A stretch of 21,575 bases of DNA from IMG/VR virus record IMGVR_UViG_3300030007_000025, positions 1 through 21,575 of that record. One strand, written 5' to 3'. This DNA comes from a virus. The first letter of the stretch is position 1, and each line of letters opens with the position of its first letter. The notes under the pieces are model-generated. The model saw nothing but the letters and a program-made list of their open reading frames with translations. It was not told the DNA's origin and made no database searches. This document shows, piece after piece, positions 177 to 6,759 of this stretch. Both the position numbers and the translations under genes were made by a program.

Positions 177-1775
177 ATGCCTACTAACGGACGCCCAGGT
201 GTTTTCTTTCAGGAGTCCTTCCAGCCGCTGGCAACCGGTGGCGGGGGCATTCCCGGGGAAGCGCTGCCCTGCTTCGCGGGTATTTATCCTGGCGGGCCTA
301 CTGCGCCGTGGCTCGTCACCTCGTGGAATCAGTTCCTGATCCAGTACGGGAGTTTCAGTACCCCCGCAACGAGTAATACGAACACGCCGTCCTGGGCTCT
401 TGGAATGAATGGCAGGTACCTTCTGCCCTTCGCCGTATACGAGTTCTTCCAGAATGGCGGGTCGCAGTGCATCGTCCTGTCCCTCGCGAACTCGGACGCC
501 ACGTCCGCATCCCTCCAGCTAGAAGACACCCCTGCAACAACGGATATTGTCACCGTCACGGCCAGTTCCCCAGGTGTCTGGGGGCAGAGTATTTTCGTTG
601 AAGTTGTCGCTGTTGCCGCCGGGTACTTCAACTTCAACGTGTACTTCGGTAACTCATCTCCGTCGAATCTGGTCGAGACATTCCCGTACGTGACGATGAA
701 TCCGCGGGACCCCAGCGGGCGTTTCATGGCTACGCTGATCAACTCTCCCATAGGCGGTTCACACTACGTCAGTGTCGCCGTGACCTTCCCGTCCGGCGGA
801 TACGTCGCCGGTACGACTGACCTGGCAGCGGCCTCCCCCACTCCGCTTACCGGTGCGTCAGACGGCTCAATCGTCCCGGTTATCGGGACTGTCATTCCTA
901 CCGCCCTGGATACCCTGCCTGACCAGGCAATGTACGTTAACGTCCCCGGTCTGTCCAGCACCTCCATCCTGGGCACTCTTGCTTCCTGGGCTGCCGGTCG
1001 CGGTGACACCATGATCGTCTGTGACGGGCCTACTCCGACGCTTCCCGAAACTAATGCAACGGTCTACACCAACTACGTCAACATGGTCACGGGCGGGTCT
1101 GCCCTGCCTGTATCCTCCTACATGGCTCTGTACGCCCCGTGGGTGCTCGTTCAGGACCCGTCTAGTACGGCGCAGGGTGCGGCCACTCTTCTCCCTCCTG
1201 GTGGCCTTGTGCTTGGCCAGTGGCAGCAGAACGACGTCGCATCCGGGACCGTCCAGACTCCTGCCGGTACCCAGGCTGTCCTGAATGTCGTGGACCTGGA
1301 GACGCGCTTCACCTCGACTCAGCTTAACGGGCTGAACAACTACAACATCAATGCGCTGAAGATCGTTCCTGGTGTAGGCTTCTGTATTTTCGGCGGGCGC
1401 ACGCTTGATGTCGGTTACCCGACTCGTTACATCGCGGTTCGCCGGATGCTGATCAAGCTGGAGCATGACTTCAACTGGCTGCTCCAGCCAGCCTTGTTTC
1501 AGCCGAATGACGCACAGCTATGGGCATGGGTTACCTCGACCCTGCAGAATTACCTGATGCAGCAGATGCAGGCGGGACAGCTTGGCGGAACTACCCCGTC
1601 CACGTCTTACCTGGTTACCTGCGATTCCACCAACAACACCCTGGCCACGGCTTCGGCAGGCATTATCACCGCCACGGTTGCCGTCTCTCTCCTGAGTCCT
1701 GCCGAGTTCATCAATATCACGATCTCGCAGTTCCAGGGTACCGGAACCACGACTGTCACTACGTCAACTTCCTGA
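177..1775 (+). CDS. Contractile tail sheath protein
   Basis: This 532-residue protein forms the outer contractile cylinder of the tail, polymerising around the tube and shortening on infection. The N-terminus reads RPGVFFQE, then a tryptophan/phenylalanine-rich stretch and an FFQNGGSQC segment, as in gp18-type sheaths. A SPGVWGQSI segment follows near residue 140. The diagnostic part is the C-terminal domain: INALKIVPGVGFCIFGGRTL near residues 391-411, then a YIAVRRML segment near 418-425 and a QPNDAQLWAWV segment. These match the 'inner-face' sheath domain that carries the inter-subunit handshake strands. About 60 residues rich in Thr and Ser follow as a tail. The start ATG has AAGGAGAG at 167-174. 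The tube gene follows after 11 bases. Length is ordinary for the family (roughly 370-660). Confidence 0.93.
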   Translation: MPTNGRPGVFFQESFQPLATGGGGIPGEALPCFAGIYPGGPTAPWLVTSWNQFLIQYGSFSTPATSNTNTPSWALGMNGRYLLPFAVYEFFQNGGSQCIVLSLANSDATSASLQLEDTPATTDIVTVTASSPGVWGQSIFVEVVAVAAGYFNFNVYFGNSSPSNLVETFPYVTMNPRDPSGRFMATLINSPIGGSHYVSVAVTFPSGGYVAGTTDLAAASPTPLTGASDGSIVPVIGTVIPTALDTLPDQAMYVNVPGLSSTSILGTLASWAAGRGDTMIVCDGPTPTLPETNATVYTNYVNMVTGGSALPVSSYMALYAPWVLVQDPSSTAQGAATLLPPGGLVLGQWQQNDVASGTVQTPAGTQAVLNVVDLETRFTSTQLNGLNNYNINALKIVPGVGFCIFGGRTLDVGYPTRYIAVRRMLIKLEHDFNWLLQPALFQPNDAQLWAWVTSTLQNYLMQQMQAGQLGGTTPSTSYLVTCDSTNNTLATASAGIITATVAVSLLSPAEFINITISQFQGTGTTTVTTSTS

Positions 1776-1786
1776 AGGCAGGAACA

Positions 1787-2380
1787 ATGGTTACACAGAA
1801 GACCTCGCTGTCAAGTCCGGCGACTGACCCGCTCAGGAATTTTAAGTTCCAGGTGATACTGACCCCCTTGAACGCCACCGGGGCGGGCGGCGGCGGTACT
1901 TCCATTACCCTCGGCTTCATGACCGTCCAGGGGCTTGCCGCGAACATCGACTCGATTCCCTACCGTGAGGGAAACATGAACACGGTGACCCAGCAGATGC
2001 CGGGCCAGACGTCGTTCAATCCGATTACCCTGTCCCATGGTGTCATCTGCGGGCAGACGGGGGGTCCGCTGGAAGTGAACATGCTACAGCAGATCTTCAC
2101 CGTCAATCAGGGTTCCGGTACCCAGGCTCCTGGCATGAACTTCCGCTACAAGGCAGATATCCAGGTTCTGGATCATCCGGTCACTACGCAAGATGCTCCT
2201 GTCAAGGCATGGTTCATAGTTCACAACGCGTGGACTACTGCCTTTGCCTGGGGCGACCTTGACGCGGGAGCGAACCAGACACTGGTCGCGCAGCTCTCTA
2301 TGGTCCATGAGGGCTTTGATGTTTCCTACGCGGCAGGTGTGGGCACATCTGCAGCTTCCGCACCGGACACACTTCAGTAA
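1787..2380 (+). CDS. Tail tube protein (T4 gp19-like)
   Basis: This 197-residue protein is the major subunit of the inner tube inside the sheath. It contains FKFQVILTP near the N-terminus, a short glycine insert, then TLGFMTVQGL and DSIPYREGNMN, the usual gp19-family order of a beta strand, a hydrophobic loop and a YREG turn. The C-terminal half, with VKAWFIVHNAWTTAFAWGDL and then a LSMVHEGFDV strand, also fits the family. The frame is open far upstream (to 1520) inside the sheath gene, but the ATG at 1787 is preferred because AAGGCAGGA lies just before it and the protein then has the usual tube length. Sheath followed directly by tube is the standard order. Confidence 0.9.
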   Translation: MVTQKTSLSSPATDPLRNFKFQVILTPLNATGAGGGGTSITLGFMTVQGLAANIDSIPYREGNMNTVTQQMPGQTSFNPITLSHGVICGQTGGPLEVNMLQQIFTVNQGSGTQAPGMNFRYKADIQVLDHPVTTQDAPVKAWFIVHNAWTTAFAWGDLDAGANQTLVAQLSMVHEGFDVSYAAGVGTSAASAPDTLQ

Positions 2381-2433: not shown

Positions 2434-3297
2434 ATGGCACCAGAAGTGAAGACCGTTCGCGCGAATGAGCGTCCCAGTGATGCCAACGCCGCCGCCGCTG
2501 CGGCTATGTCAGCCGCTATTGCGAAGTACCCCGATGCTCCGGTGTCGTTGCCTGACCTGGTCACCCTGCCCGGTGGCCTGGTAAATGGTGATGAGATAAT
2601 TTCCACGGCCCAGGTCAGGGAACTTAACGGGATGGCCGAGGAAGCCCTGTCCCGTGCTTCCCTTCCGGACCCGCGTACCGGTGTGGTAAATTCTTTCCAC
2701 TACCTGAATACCCTGGTAACTCAGGGGACGGTCAAGGTCGGGGAGGCTGACCCCAAGGAGACTAAAAAGCTCCTGGGCAAACTACTTATAGGGGACCGGG
2801 ACGCTATTCTCATGGGAATCCGGATCATCACCTACGGCAAGGACCTGGAAATCCCGCAGTGGGAGTGCCCGTCCTGCGGTGAGCTTTCCGACCTGACGAT
2901 TGACCTTACTGAAGATGTCAGTACCAAGACCCTGAAGAGTCCTGATGAGGCTGCATTCGAGGTCGAGCTGAACCGTGGCAAGGTGGCGGCTGTACGTCTT
3001 CCTAACGGGGAAGACCAACTGGCAATAGGGGAGAATCCTAAGGCCACTACTGCCGAACGAAACACCATTTTGCTCCAACGCTGTATCTCCACCATCACCT
3101 CGCCTGACGGTCACATTCAGTCAATGGCTGGCTTCCCGTCTCTGGCCCGCGAGATGTCCATACCAGACCGGCGTAAGGTTCTGAGAGAGGTAGCTGAGCG
3201 CCAGCCAGGACCGGAGTTCAACGACATTAAACTGACTCACGCGGCGTGCGGTAATGAGGTGACCCTCGCACTGGGGATCGCGGACTTGTTTCTCTAG
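2434..3297 (+). CDS. T4 gp26-like tail assembly chaperone/baseplate protein with zinc ribbon
   Basis: This 287-residue protein sits between tube and tape measure, where phages keep their tail assembly chaperone. The core resembles the T4_baseplate (gp26/gp51) family: KKLLGKLLIGDRDAILMGIR, then CPSC (Cys145 and Cys148), a basic-acidic strand region with VRLPNG, a helical DRRKVLREV segment and a second metal-ligand pair His269/Cys272 in HAACGNEV. C-x2-C with H-x2-C suggests a structural zinc ribbon. The first ~45 residues are alanine-rich and low in complexity. The ribosome site is CGGAG at 2422-2426. The gene ends in TTTCTCTAG, and the next short ORF is open in the +1/-2 frame across this end, so a longer fused product is possible. 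Assigning it a chaperone rather than a baseplate role is inference from position. Confidence 0.65.
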   Translation: MAPEVKTVRANERPSDANAAAAAAMSAAIAKYPDAPVSLPDLVTLPGGLVNGDEIISTAQVRELNGMAEEALSRASLPDPRTGVVNSFHYLNTLVTQGTVKVGEADPKETKKLLGKLLIGDRDAILMGIRIITYGKDLEIPQWECPSCGELSDLTIDLTEDVSTKTLKSPDEAAFEVELNRGKVAAVRLPNGEDQLAIGENPKATTAERNTILLQRCISTITSPDGHIQSMAGFPSLAREMSIPDRRKVLREVAERQPGPEFNDIKLTHAACGNEVTLALGIADLFL

Positions 3298-3316
3298 GGA
3301 GATAAGCCTCGACCGG
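3263..3316 (+). other. Candidate programmed frameshift zone
   Basis: The frame of the following short ORF is open from 3263, after a TGA at 3260, and overlaps the last 35 bases of the zinc-ribbon gene. Two possible slip sites lie inside. One is TTT C at 3289-3292, where a Phe tRNA could move +1 onto TTC two codons before the stop. The other is GGGG at 3273-3276, usable for a -2 shift. Both give the same downstream frame. A +1 shift at TTTC would yield a product of about 351 residues. GGGAGA just after the stop is too far (about 14 bases) from the ATG at 3317 to be a convincing ribosome site. Confidence 0.4.
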
Positions 3317-3490
3317 ATGTACTACGAGTACGGCCTGATTACCATCGCCTTTCCGGCGTGGACTCCTGAGGACATGGGCAGGATGACCCGGCAGCAGCGG
3401 AAGTACTGGTCGGAGTTCTCCCTGGCCCGGCACGAGCAAAAGAATCTGGTAAACTTAGGGAGAACGAACATTCGGAATAATAGCTCGTAG
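3317..3490 (+). CDS. Short tail assembly ORF, possible frameshift extension
   Basis: This 57-codon ORF starts at the ATG at 3317 and ends at TAG 3488-3490. It begins MYYEYGLITIAFPAWTPEDM and continues with MTRQQRKYWSEFSL, a helical, basic-aromatic segment. Its placement after a gp26-like protein and before the tape measure matches the second half of tail assembly chaperones. It also matches the small DUF6760-type ORF found at this point in actinobacterial contractile injection clusters, which is a resemblance from memory. No good ribosome site precedes the ATG. Translation by frameshift from the upstream gene (frame open from 3263) is therefore at least as likely as independent initiation. 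Confidence 0.55.
   Translation: MYYEYGLITIAFPAWTPEDMGRMTRQQRKYWSEFSLARHEQKNLVNLGRTNIRNNSS
3453..3481 (+). promoter_or_regulatory. Possible late promoter, copy 2
   Basis: ACTTAG (3453-3458), a 17-base spacer and AATAAT (3476-3481) lie at the end of the short assembly ORF and ahead of the tape measure gene. The geometry equals that of copy 1 at 2371-2399, and both lead into CTCGTAGCAAC. The -35 box is weak, so the call depends on the repetition. Confidence 0.3.
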
Positions 3491-3567: not shown

Positions 3568-6500
3568 ATGCCCGCGAATGATGATTACAATGCGACGATG
3601 GGTGTGGCAGGAAACCCAGGCAGCTCGCAGGTCATAGGCGCGAATTCTCTCCAGCAGGCAATTGACAAGTTTGACTCTGCCGTTACCAAGCTGTCCGGCC
3701 TGTATGACACGGCAGCGAAGTCGGCCGGGAGTATCACGCCGGGCGGGATCACCTCAAAGACGGGCGGACCCCAGTCATCTAACAGCCAAGGATGGGTGAG
3801 TCAGCTCGGCTCGCGCTTCTCTTCCCTCAAGAACGGATTCGGTGGCCAGCAGCCGAACCAGTCCGGGCAATCCACGACTAATGCGTGGGGCGTCACCACG
3901 CAGAATACGGGAATGCAGCCTGCCGCGAGCGGGCAGGGTTCCGGTCAGGGATACACCGGGCTGCTCCCTACCATGTTCGGCCAGATCGGGGGCAAGCCTT
4001 CCGCTGCTGCGGCGTACGTTACTGCGCGAACAGGGGGAGGTACAGGAGGGGGTGCGCCTAGCAATGGCGGGAGTGCCAGCAGCGGTCCCCCGACCATCGG
4101 CGGCACGCTCGCGACGGCTGCAGGTGCGGCTGCCATAGCGTCGACAGCTTACGGACTGAACCAGTACAGCAAGCAGGTTCAGCTTTCCGGCTTTGTGACG
4201 CAGAACGCCATGTGGCTTCCGGCTGGCGCAGGAGCCGGGGCTAACGTCCAGAACCGGATTGGTCAGGCTGCGCTGGCCAACAAGCCACTGGCCATGAACC
4301 AGAGTGACCAGCTCGCCTCGCAGTCGATTATCAGCGGCATGTACGGGACGGCTTCAGGTTACGGTAATGCGCAGTCGAATCAGCTTCAGTCCGGCGCTAA
4401 TGCGGCCGGGTACGCCATGGGCCAGGGTGCCGCAGCCGGTGCCCAGTTCGCTGCAAACCTGTACTCTCCTACATCTTCAATGGCCTTTTACAATATGGGC
4501 CTGGGGAACACTGCTCCCGGTATCAGGGGCTCATCTGCCACCCGGTCAATGCCAGTCGTCGCCCAGGGACTTATCAGCCGACTAGGCGGGACTGGCGGCA
4601 AGAACCTGTCCACCAACATTTCCGAGGCAGGTGCCGGGTACGGTACCCTGCTGGCACTATCGGGGGGAGACCCCAACCAGGCCGCGAATCTGCAGACCAT
4701 GCTGCTGGCCACGCAGAAGCTGGACGTCGGTAACAAGGCTACGGGAGGAAAGGGCCTTAGTACGACTCAGCAGACAGCTTTGTGGAATGCATCAGCGGGT
4801 CAGGGCAGCACCGCCGGGTCCAAGAAGCAGACTGTATCCAGCGCTGATGCCGAGCTGGCCAAGTACGGAATCAACACCTCAGACCAGCAACGTATCAATA
4901 ACGCCAGCAGTCAGCAGATGAACCAGACTGCCAACACGGCCCAGTCCTTCAATGACGGGCTGACTGCCTCGACTGCCATCATTGGTGACTTCAATGCGGC
5001 TGTGACCAAGTTCTTGAACATACCAGGGGTTAAGCAGATCACCGGTATACACGGCGGCATCGCTGCCTCCTTGGCTAACGTTCCAGGCGGGGCTGCGCTC
5101 ATGGGTACCGTAGGCACAGCCGTGGGTATCGGGAAGGATATCGCTAGCCTCTTTTCGGCAGGCGGACGTCTTCCCGGCTACGGTGGCGGGGATGTAAATC
5201 CTGCTCTGCTTGAGTCTGGGGAGACGGTCGTATCCAAGGAACACTCGAAGAAACTGGCGGGAGTGTTTAAGGCAGTAGGCGTGCCCGGTTATTCATCAGG
5301 CGGCGCAATTGCAGCCGATGCTCAAAAGTACGTTGGCCACAAGTATGTCTACGGCGGCCCGTCTAATCCCAAAAATGGCTGGGACTGCAGCTCCTTTGTT
5401 GACTACGTTGTCGGACATGATGAAAAGATGAGTATTCCTGGCGGGAGTTGGGCCAGCACCACCAGCAAGGGAGCAATACACGGCCCGGCCACCGGAGACT
5501 GGGCATCCTGGGGCGGTACCAAGGTCATTGGAACAGACGCCAGCAAGTCTCTCAGCGGAGACATTGTGTTGTGGCCAAGTCACGTCGGAATTTCTCTTGG
5601 CGGAAACAAGATGGTGTCCGCGTATGACACTGCGTCAGGTACAATTGATACTTCTATAACCAGCGGTGGTCCTGGTGGGGAGAGTTTCCAGATTCGCAGG
5701 CTGACTGGTGCGTCACCTGGTACTTCAGGCAGCACTAGTACAGCAGCCAGTACTGTATCAGGATCTCCCGGTGGTAATCCAGGTGCGGCTACCGGCTCAG
5801 CGGCTACCGGTGGAACGCTTGGACTCAGCCCTGGATCTTACGGCTCATCAACTGAGCTGGCTAACATCCAGGGGGCACTCGGAGGCGGTAGTGGTGGTGG
5901 CAGCACACTCAGTTCGAGTTCCGCTTCTTCGAGCGGTGGTTCAGGTGGCTCTGGTGGAGGTTCTGGAGGTGGCTCTGGAGGTGGCTCAGGTGCCGGGGGA
6001 CCATTGACTGATCCAGGCGGATCGCGTGCATCCTTTGCCAAGGCCCTGCTGAAGGCCATTGGTGCTCCTCTTTCAGCCGGAAATATCAAGGCAGTTACTA
6101 GCTGGGAAACCATTGAAGGTGGCGGCTTCGGTAATCAGGCCGCCAACAACCCGATGAACCTCAACCCCGGCAAGGCTAACTGGCCTGGCCACAATGCGGA
6201 CGGAGCGTGGGCCTTTCCGACCCTGGCTGACGGCCTCAAATACACCGCCCAGTATCTTGGCATGTCTAACTATTCTGGCATACTAAGTGCGCTGAAGGCC
6301 GACACGAAGGGCTCTGGTATTTCCGTAATCAATGCCATCATGGACAGCCCCTGGGCACAGAGCCACTACGGTCACGACGCTCACAGTTTTCCCGGCTATG
6401 CCGGTGGTACCGTAGGTGCGGCTGGCGGGCTCACCTGGGTTGGCGAGCGCGGTCCTGAGCTTATGGACATGGCCCCTGGTACCAGGGTGGCTACTAACGC

Positions 6501-6759
6501 GGCGTCGAAGTCTGCGGCCAAGGGGACTGCCCAGACTCCCTGGACTGCACAGCTTGCGAACATTACTGCGGGCGGTAACCGGACGGGCGCTAGTCAGGGA
6601 CAGCCTATGACCATCAACTTCGGGGACATCAACATTGGCGGTACCTCTGCCGGTGCCAGTGCTCCCGCTGCTCAGAACGCCCGCGAATTCGTTCGTGAGG
6701 TTCGCCAGTTGCTACAAAAAGAGGATCTCTTTAGCAACATCGCTGGTGGCGTGAAATGA
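3568..6759 (+). CDS. Tail tape measure protein with NlpC/P60 and lysozyme-like domains
   Basis: This 1063-residue protein is the largest of the tail core and lies directly after the assembly ORFs, the usual tape measure position. The N-terminal ~570 residues are rich in Gly, Ser, Ala, Gln and Asn, with hydrophobic stretches near 179-195 and 503-535. An NlpC/P60-like peptidase domain spans about 578-700, with the YVYGG motif, nucleophile Cys607 in DCSSFV and His672 in SHVGI. A Gly/Ser linker (about 772-811) leads to a second domain (about 813-950) with a SWETIEGGG motif (Glu847, Glu850) and a NPMNL motif, reminiscent of muramidase/glucosaminidase-type phage domains. The C-terminus has GGLTWVGERGPELM, a signature seen at tape measure ends. 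The ribosome site is ACGGAG at 3555-3560. It shares a 4-base ATGA overlap with the next gene. The hydrolase domains presumably open peptidoglycan during DNA entry. Confidence 0.88.
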   Translation: MPANDDYNATMGVAGNPGSSQVIGANSLQQAIDKFDSAVTKLSGLYDTAAKSAGSITPGGITSKTGGPQSSNSQGWVSQLGSRFSSLKNGFGGQQPNQSGQSTTNAWGVTTQNTGMQPAASGQGSGQGYTGLLPTMFGQIGGKPSAAAAYVTARTGGGTGGGAPSNGGSASSGPPTIGGTLATAAGAAAIASTAYGLNQYSKQVQLSGFVTQNAMWLPAGAGAGANVQNRIGQAALANKPLAMNQSDQLASQSIISGMYGTASGYGNAQSNQLQSGANAAGYAMGQGAAAGAQFAANLYSPTSSMAFYNMGLGNTAPGIRGSSATRSMPVVAQGLISRLGGTGGKNLSTNISEAGAGYGTLLALSGGDPNQAANLQTMLLATQKLDVGNKATGGKGLSTTQQTALWNASAGQGSTAGSKKQTVSSADAELAKYGINTSDQQRINNASSQQMNQTANTAQSFNDGLTASTAIIGDFNAAVTKFLNIPGVKQITGIHGGIAASLANVPGGAALMGTVGTAVGIGKDIASLFSAGGRLPGYGGGDVNPALLESGETVVSKEHSKKLAGVFKAVGVPGYSSGGAIAADAQKYVGHKYVYGGPSNPKNGWDCSSFVDYVVGHDEKMSIPGGSWASTTSKGAIHGPATGDWASWGGTKVIGTDASKSLSGDIVLWPSHVGISLGGNKMVSAYDTASGTIDTSITSGGPGGESFQIRRLTGASPGTSGSTSTAASTVSGSPGGNPGAATGSAATGGTLGLSPGSYGSSTELANIQGALGGGSGGGSTLSSSSASSSGGSGGSGGGSGGGSGGGSGAGGPLTDPGGSRASFAKALLKAIGAPLSAGNIKAVTSWETIEGGGFGNQAANNPMNLNPGKANWPGHNADGAWAFPTLADGLKYTAQYLGMSNYSGILSALKADTKGSGISVINAIMDSPWAQSHYGHDAHSFPGYAGGTVGAAGGLTWVGERGPELMDMAPGTRVATNAASKSAAKGTAQTPWTAQLANITAGGNRTGASQGQPMTINFGDINIGGTSAGASAPAAQNAREFVREVRQLLQKEDLFSNIAGGVK
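5931..5995 (+). repeat. Tandem Gly/Ser-coding repeat
   Basis: Imperfect tandem copies of a 12-base unit, GGTGGCTCTGGA and variants, code for a GGGS-type linker between the two enzymatic domains of the tape measure protein. The array is preceded by a serine run. Such short perfect units can expand or contract by slippage. Confidence 0.75.

Follow-up and report, generated by a model that had tools for sequence, protein, structure and literature searches.

The contractile-tail gene cluster of a viral contig (IMG/VR record IMGVR_UViG_3300030007_000025) raises the question of how a small open reading frame (ORF) that lies between a gp26-like gene and a candidate tape measure gene is translated. 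We analyzed the whole stretch of 21,575 nucleotides of this record, hereafter the window, in which the cluster consists of sheath, tube, the gp26-like gene (PF12322), the small ORF, the tape measure candidate, and baseplate genes (Table 1). A sequence-only reading of the window had proposed that the gp26-like gene and the small ORF are a tail assembly pair linked by a +1 or a -2 frameshift. Comparison with relatives leads us to posit, with a probability of about 0.9, that both ORFs belong to a single tail assembly chaperone gene whose long form would be made by a +1 slip on UUU_C. The comparison establishes the linkage of the frames, the coding status of the +1 ORF, and the invariance of UUU_C; the slip itself, its efficiency, and the chaperone role are what we infer.

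In the window, the gp26-like gene ends in TTG (3286-3288), TTT (3289-3291), CTC (3292-3294), and TAG (3295-3297), the TTT C of which the sequence-only reading had correctly picked out as a slip option. The frame of the small ORF is also open as far back as that reading held, from 3263, just after a TGA at 3260-3262, to the TAG at 3488-3490. Its remark that the small ORF has no good ribosome site stands as well: the nearest Shine–Dalgarno (SD)-like stretch, AGGGAG at 3296-3301, is 15 nucleotides ahead of the ATG at 3317-3319, which is too far. The joined short form and extension would give a product of 351 amino acids, with GIADLF followed at the junction by SREISLDRMYYEYG.

Profile scans of viral contigs and bacterial genomes yielded 164 loci with an intact first gene, the window included, and duplicates between scans were removed by clustering on protein identity, which left 86, 48, and 20 groups at 90%, 70%, and 50%, respectively. 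The relatives are soil, freshwater, and Streptomyces phages and actinobacterial prophages, with contigs of Actinomadura, Saccharothrix, Streptomyces, and Nonomuraea among the loci; four IMG/VR contigs match the window exactly over the region. A tblastn search returned six records that belong to five Streptomyces phages (BRock, GiJojo, LuckySocke, Alone3, and pSt2308), whose gene order is sheath, tube, gp26-like, small ORF, and tape measure. Their annotations list the small ORF as a hypothetical protein of its own, except in pSt2308, where it is unannotated. An alignment of relatives had been suggested as a check on the proposed frameshift, and in it the slip site and the open overlap are kept throughout: the second ORF stands in the +1 frame and is open across the stop of the first gene in 164/164 loci, and all of these loci have, 2-7 codons ahead of that stop, a TTT in the zero frame with C as the next base. 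Examination of the relatives for unlinked frames or clear ribosome sites left the linkage standing. Given that the arrangement recurs wherever a relative has its first gene intact, the comparison indicates that the combination of a partner in the +1 frame, an open overlap, and TTT_C exceeds chance.

The phenylalanine at the slip position is encoded by TTT in 86/86 groups (below 90% identity), whereas elsewhere in these genes 48% of the Phe codons are TTT. The log10 P of this bias is about -31 for the 86 groups and -11.5 for the 20 groups below 50% identity, values that serve as guides and not as exact probabilities because the sequences share ancestry. Nine other invariant residues that have two codons served as a control and use both, with the commoner codon at 53-79%; this difference from the uniform TTT of the slip Phe indicates a constraint that acts at the nucleotide level and not at the protein level only. 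The codon before the slip TTT is TTG in 57 of the 86 groups, CTG in 21, CTA in 4, ATG in 2, CTC in 1, and ACC in 1, and the codon after it is mostly CGN, otherwise CTC, CAA, CAG, CTT, or CCT. Because the stop codon, the pre-stop codon, the A-site codon, and the distance from slip to stop all vary among these groups, the comparison identifies UUU_C as the shift site and argues against a shift adjacent to the stop. A +1 slip of the latter kind, at the pre-stop codon (CTC TAG) in the style of release factor 2, would fit the CTC-stop of the window and of most Streptomyces-type relatives; however, the pre-stop codon is varied in freshwater and other relatives (TTA, TTC, GGC, ATC, and GCG) while TTT_C is invariant, and codon–anticodon reasoning predicts that Leu-tRNA re-pairs poorly on UCU, which together make this mechanism very unlikely. 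The -2 shift that the sequence-only reading had offered as its second option fares still worse, as the codon two bases back is UGU, which is not read by Phe-tRNA, and the site contains no repeated G or U run, although such a shift would reach the same frame and is used by the tail chaperone of phage Mu (PMC5009743, PMC3498833). We rejected both the stop-codon slip and the -2 shift on conservation and pairing. Transcriptional slippage or a sequencing error could likewise yield the same fusion, but the site has no homopolymer longer than 3, and 86 distinct groups as well as isolate genomes share the arrangement, so we regard either as extremely improbable.

The part of the +1 ORF downstream of the stop was subjected to a codon-position test on 21 independent pairs, in which changes at codon positions 1, 2, and 3 number 165, 90, and 341 and synonymous codon changes number 260 in the +1 frame versus 63 and 43 in the other frames. 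This pattern indicates that the +1 ORF evolves as a protein. Whether that protein could instead be the product of a separate gene, translated from ATG 3317 through reinitiation or coupling downstream of TAG 3295, depends on its start codons. The ATG of the window lies 19 nucleotides past the stop and is preceded by the AGGGAG noted above, and some T4-like relatives have an overlapping TAATG; however, conservation does not extend to this ATG: 74/86 groups have no ATG ahead of a conserved W, 46/86 have no ATG, GTG, or TTG ahead of the conserved W core, and several ORFs contain none at all. Conservation of the +1 ORF reaches upstream of any start codon, and an independent gene would leave the invariant TTT_C unexplained. 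Since start codons are often missing ahead of the conserved core, the comparison argues that separate initiation is not the general mode for the +1 ORF, and we consider an independent gene unlikely. The +1 option at UUU_C, by contrast, is borne out by the invariant TTT_C, by the conserved +1-frame protein ahead of any start codon, and by the varying position of the stop.

Some loci depart from the common pattern or from the expected hosts. A small contig binned as Bacillota (JAQBPS010000677.1, locus L263) has the same +1 pair and is probably a misbinned phage fragment or a sign of a wider host range. Locus L256 has an in-frame stop at codon 123 of its gp26-like frame (from 1501), with the slip-site region and the +1 ORF intact downstream. 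In locus L077, near position 3755, a deletion of ~20 nucleotides relative to L050 removes the stop of the +1 ORF and joins it to the following frame (tape measure region), which represents either a real fusion or an assembly artefact.

In the +1 mechanism that we propose, most ribosomes would stop at TAG 3295 and release a short form of 287 amino acids (TAC-N, gp26-like), while a fraction would slip +1 when the P-site Phe-tRNA on UUU (3289-3291) shifts its pairing to UUC (3290-3292) ahead of decoding of the next codon. The slipped ribosomes would go on through 3293-3487 to make a long form of 351 amino acids (TAC-NC) whose C-terminal domain is gp51-like. The analogy to gpG and gpGT of lambda suggests a role for each: the tape measure protein would be coated by the short form, and the long form would bring in tail tube subunits. 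A slip from UUU to the overlapping UUC should be favorable given that Phe-tRNA pairs more strongly with UUC than with UUU (PMC3498833). UUU_Ynn is reported to be prone to +1 shifts in bacteria (PMC5009743), UUU_CGU of influenza PA-X is used in the +1 direction on peptide evidence, and the authors of the PA-X study expected UUU_C sites to form a class in which only certain E- and A-site codons occur (PMC3498833).

Position, gp26/gp51 homology, and a weak match to the HK97 fold suggest that the two products are a short and a long tail-assembly chaperone. The pair sits between the tail tube and tape measure genes in the window and in the five annotated Streptomyces phages. The gp26-like gene passes the curated cut-off of PF12322 (37.9 versus 24.5 bits) and is related to T4-like gp26 (hhalign E=7.5e-8) up to the terminal Phe, and the +1 extension matches T4-like gp51 (hhalign E=4e-6 and 1.8e-5, with reversed controls of at least 0.5 for the 1.8e-5 run). 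When T4 gp51 was compared directly with the profile of the +1 fusion, the match was weak, so the link to T4 gp51 itself rests on phrog_150/PF12322 and on the -1 family described below; a PDB sequence search with the fusion profile gave no matches. An AlphaFold2 model of the short form, which is the part covered (predicted local distance difference test score, pLDDT, of 92), matches "baseplate hub assembly protein, T4-like" among viral folds (E=1.8e-21), and a review counts T4 gp26 and gp51 as hub assembly chaperones (PMC3004832).

Several observations weigh against a frameshifted chaperone gene. No conserved RNA structure was found downstream of the site in two alignments, in a test that covered structures free of pseudoknots, and no enrichment of an SD signal was found upstream of the slip site in the +1 family. 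The ATG at 3317 could act as a separate start in the window, the +1 domain is only remotely homologous to gp51 (hhalign probability 55-87%), and the top PDB fold match of the short-form model, HK97 tail assembly chaperone 2ob9 (prob 0.92), has a weak E=0.13, so that we treat this match as suggestive only of a chaperone role. Given that neither a conserved RNA structure nor an SD signal accompanies it, the shift site appears to be local in nature, and we lean toward the view that the +1 branch represents a natural bacterial UUU_C site, conserved across a wide range of relatives, for which the local sequence suffices. The GGGG at 3273-3276 that the sequence-only reading had pointed out is present; however, it is not conserved and is probably irrelevant to the slip, and we dropped it as a stimulator because an SD stimulator is present in the -1 family and absent in the +1 family.

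Table 1. Features of the tail gene cluster in the window (columns: feature, positions, strand, basis or remark).
Tail sheath protein	177..1775	+	Pfam PF04984/PF17482, under curated cut-offs; sheath gene annotated at same place in relatives
ORF with tail tube protein, gp19-like domain in C-terminal part	1520..2380	+	Pfam PF06841 E=2.9e-16; phrog_4542 E=2e-27
gp26-like gene, 287 amino acids, putative short tail assembly chaperone (TAC-N)	2434..3297	+	PF12322 T4_baseplate E=2e-9; phrog_150 E=2.8e-11
TGA closing the +1 frame upstream	3260..3262	+	Open overlap begins at 3263
Predicted +1 shift site TTG_TTT_C, E-site Leu, P-site Phe UUU re-pairing to UUC	3286..3292	+	TTT_C invariant in 164 loci; within-gene codon control
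Zero-frame stop (TAG) of the short form	3295..3297	+	2-7 codons past the slip codon across the family
Putative +1-frame extension, 65 amino acids plus stop, gp51-like TAC-C domain	3293..3490	+	Alignment with relatives; codon-position test; hhalign
First ATG in +1 ORF, candidate independent start, not conserved	3317..3319	+	ORF listing; comparison with relatives
Tape measure protein candidate, 1063 amino acids, NlpC/P60 domain	3568..6759	+	Position same as in relatives

The NlpC/P60 peptidase domain of the tape measure candidate spans 5335-5640 of the window (residues 590-691 of ORF 3568-6759). No tRNA gene was found in the window.

Cyanophages and other T4-like phages have the same pair ahead of the tape measure gene, with the partner in the -1 frame. 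Their gp26 gene ends in U_UUU_UUC in 80/80 contigs, the second codon of the heptamer being TTC in 84/86 groups and TTT in 2/86, and the -1 site falls at the same Phe as the +1 slip. An SD-like sequence lies 9 nucleotides upstream in this family, with a mean duplex energy of -6.75 versus -1.92 in controls. The heptamer TTTTTTC is absent from the window, and the partner there is in the +1 frame. Only 15/86 of the T4-like groups lack an ATG soon after the stop, and since many have one, coupling is less excluded in the -1 family. In a tree, the +1 sequences cluster together with full support and separately from the T4-like sequences. The tree was rooted at its midpoint and so bears on grouping and not on the direction of change between +1 and -1. 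The end of the gp26 gene of T4 itself reads GAG TTC TTT GAG TTA CTA TAA and lacks a slip site; transcription of gene 51 is divergent. Both T4 gp26 and T4 gp51 belong to PF12322, and gp51 (locus L268, 968-2394) has an in-frame C-terminal extension resembling the T4-like gp51 domain; T4 genes 26 and 51 therefore look, by sequence, like separately encoded short and long forms.

At individual T4-like gp26 3' ends (loci L090-L100, L102-L182, L269, L270, and L272), the heptamer is U_UUU_UUC or U_UUU_UUU, gp51 lies in the -1 frame, and in many cases the SD-like sequence is present 9 nucleotides upstream. L271 and L273 (Ackermannviridae) and L101 (Vibrio K393) have a gp51-like ORF in the -1 frame and no full heptamer (ATT TTC, GTT TTC, CTT TTC); in this set, phage 3M also has no ATG near the junction. 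Some annotated T4-like gp51 genes begin downstream of conserved coding sequence or are missing, probably reflecting truncated annotations.

Chaperones of the lambda gpG/gpGT type (Xu, Hendrix and Duda 2004; PMC5009743) are likewise made as a short form and a frameshifted long form, but typically by a -1 shift on a heptamer, whereas the family of the window would use +1 on UUU_C in a protein of the PF12322 (T4 gp26) family. T4-like gp26/gp51 share the protein family and gene order of the window family, its short form being gp26-like and its extension gp51-like; the T4-like relatives, however, have U_UUU_UUC, a -1 partner, and an SD-like sequence, and T4 has two separate genes, whereas the +1 family lacks the SD. 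The -1 side and the two-gene solution of T4 were reportedly the subject of work by Vladimirov, Gautam and Davidson in 2022 (cited in PMC12846349). Our idea that the relation between T4 gp26 and gp51 was unreported was dropped when a 2022 citation (Vladimirov et al.) was found. A +1 shift has also been proposed for the chaperone pair of HF1-like haloviruses and HSTV-2, between the tail tube and tape measure genes as in the window (PMC7230728, PMC5009743), with TTT-CGC as the proposed site in the HF1 group (PMC7230728). These viruses have archaeal hosts, and homology of the HF2 chaperones to the pair in the window is unsupported; given that the HF2 proteins fall in other families (phrog_14268/12163) and do not match PF12322, the halovirus and window-family sites are probably convergent. 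Influenza A PA-X (UCC_UUU_CGU; PMC3498833) has the same P-site Phe-tRNA slip from UUU to UUC, and the A-site codon is often CGN in the window family too, but it belongs to a eukaryotic virus, its protein is unrelated, and its E-site codon is UCC where the window family mostly has NUG.

No description of a +1 branch in the gp26-like family was found in the open literature, to which our search was confined. What is new is this conserved +1 branch of the gp26-like chaperone family, the short/long pair itself being a known theme. Its 86 diverse natural variants of one UUU_C site make the E-site and A-site rules of +1 slippage readable from evolution and testable, and in Streptomyces phages, GiJojo and LuckySocke among them, two "hypothetical" genes can be re-annotated as one chaperone gene. 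Related phages would thus reach the same short/long pair by +1 shifting, by -1 shifting, or by gene splitting.
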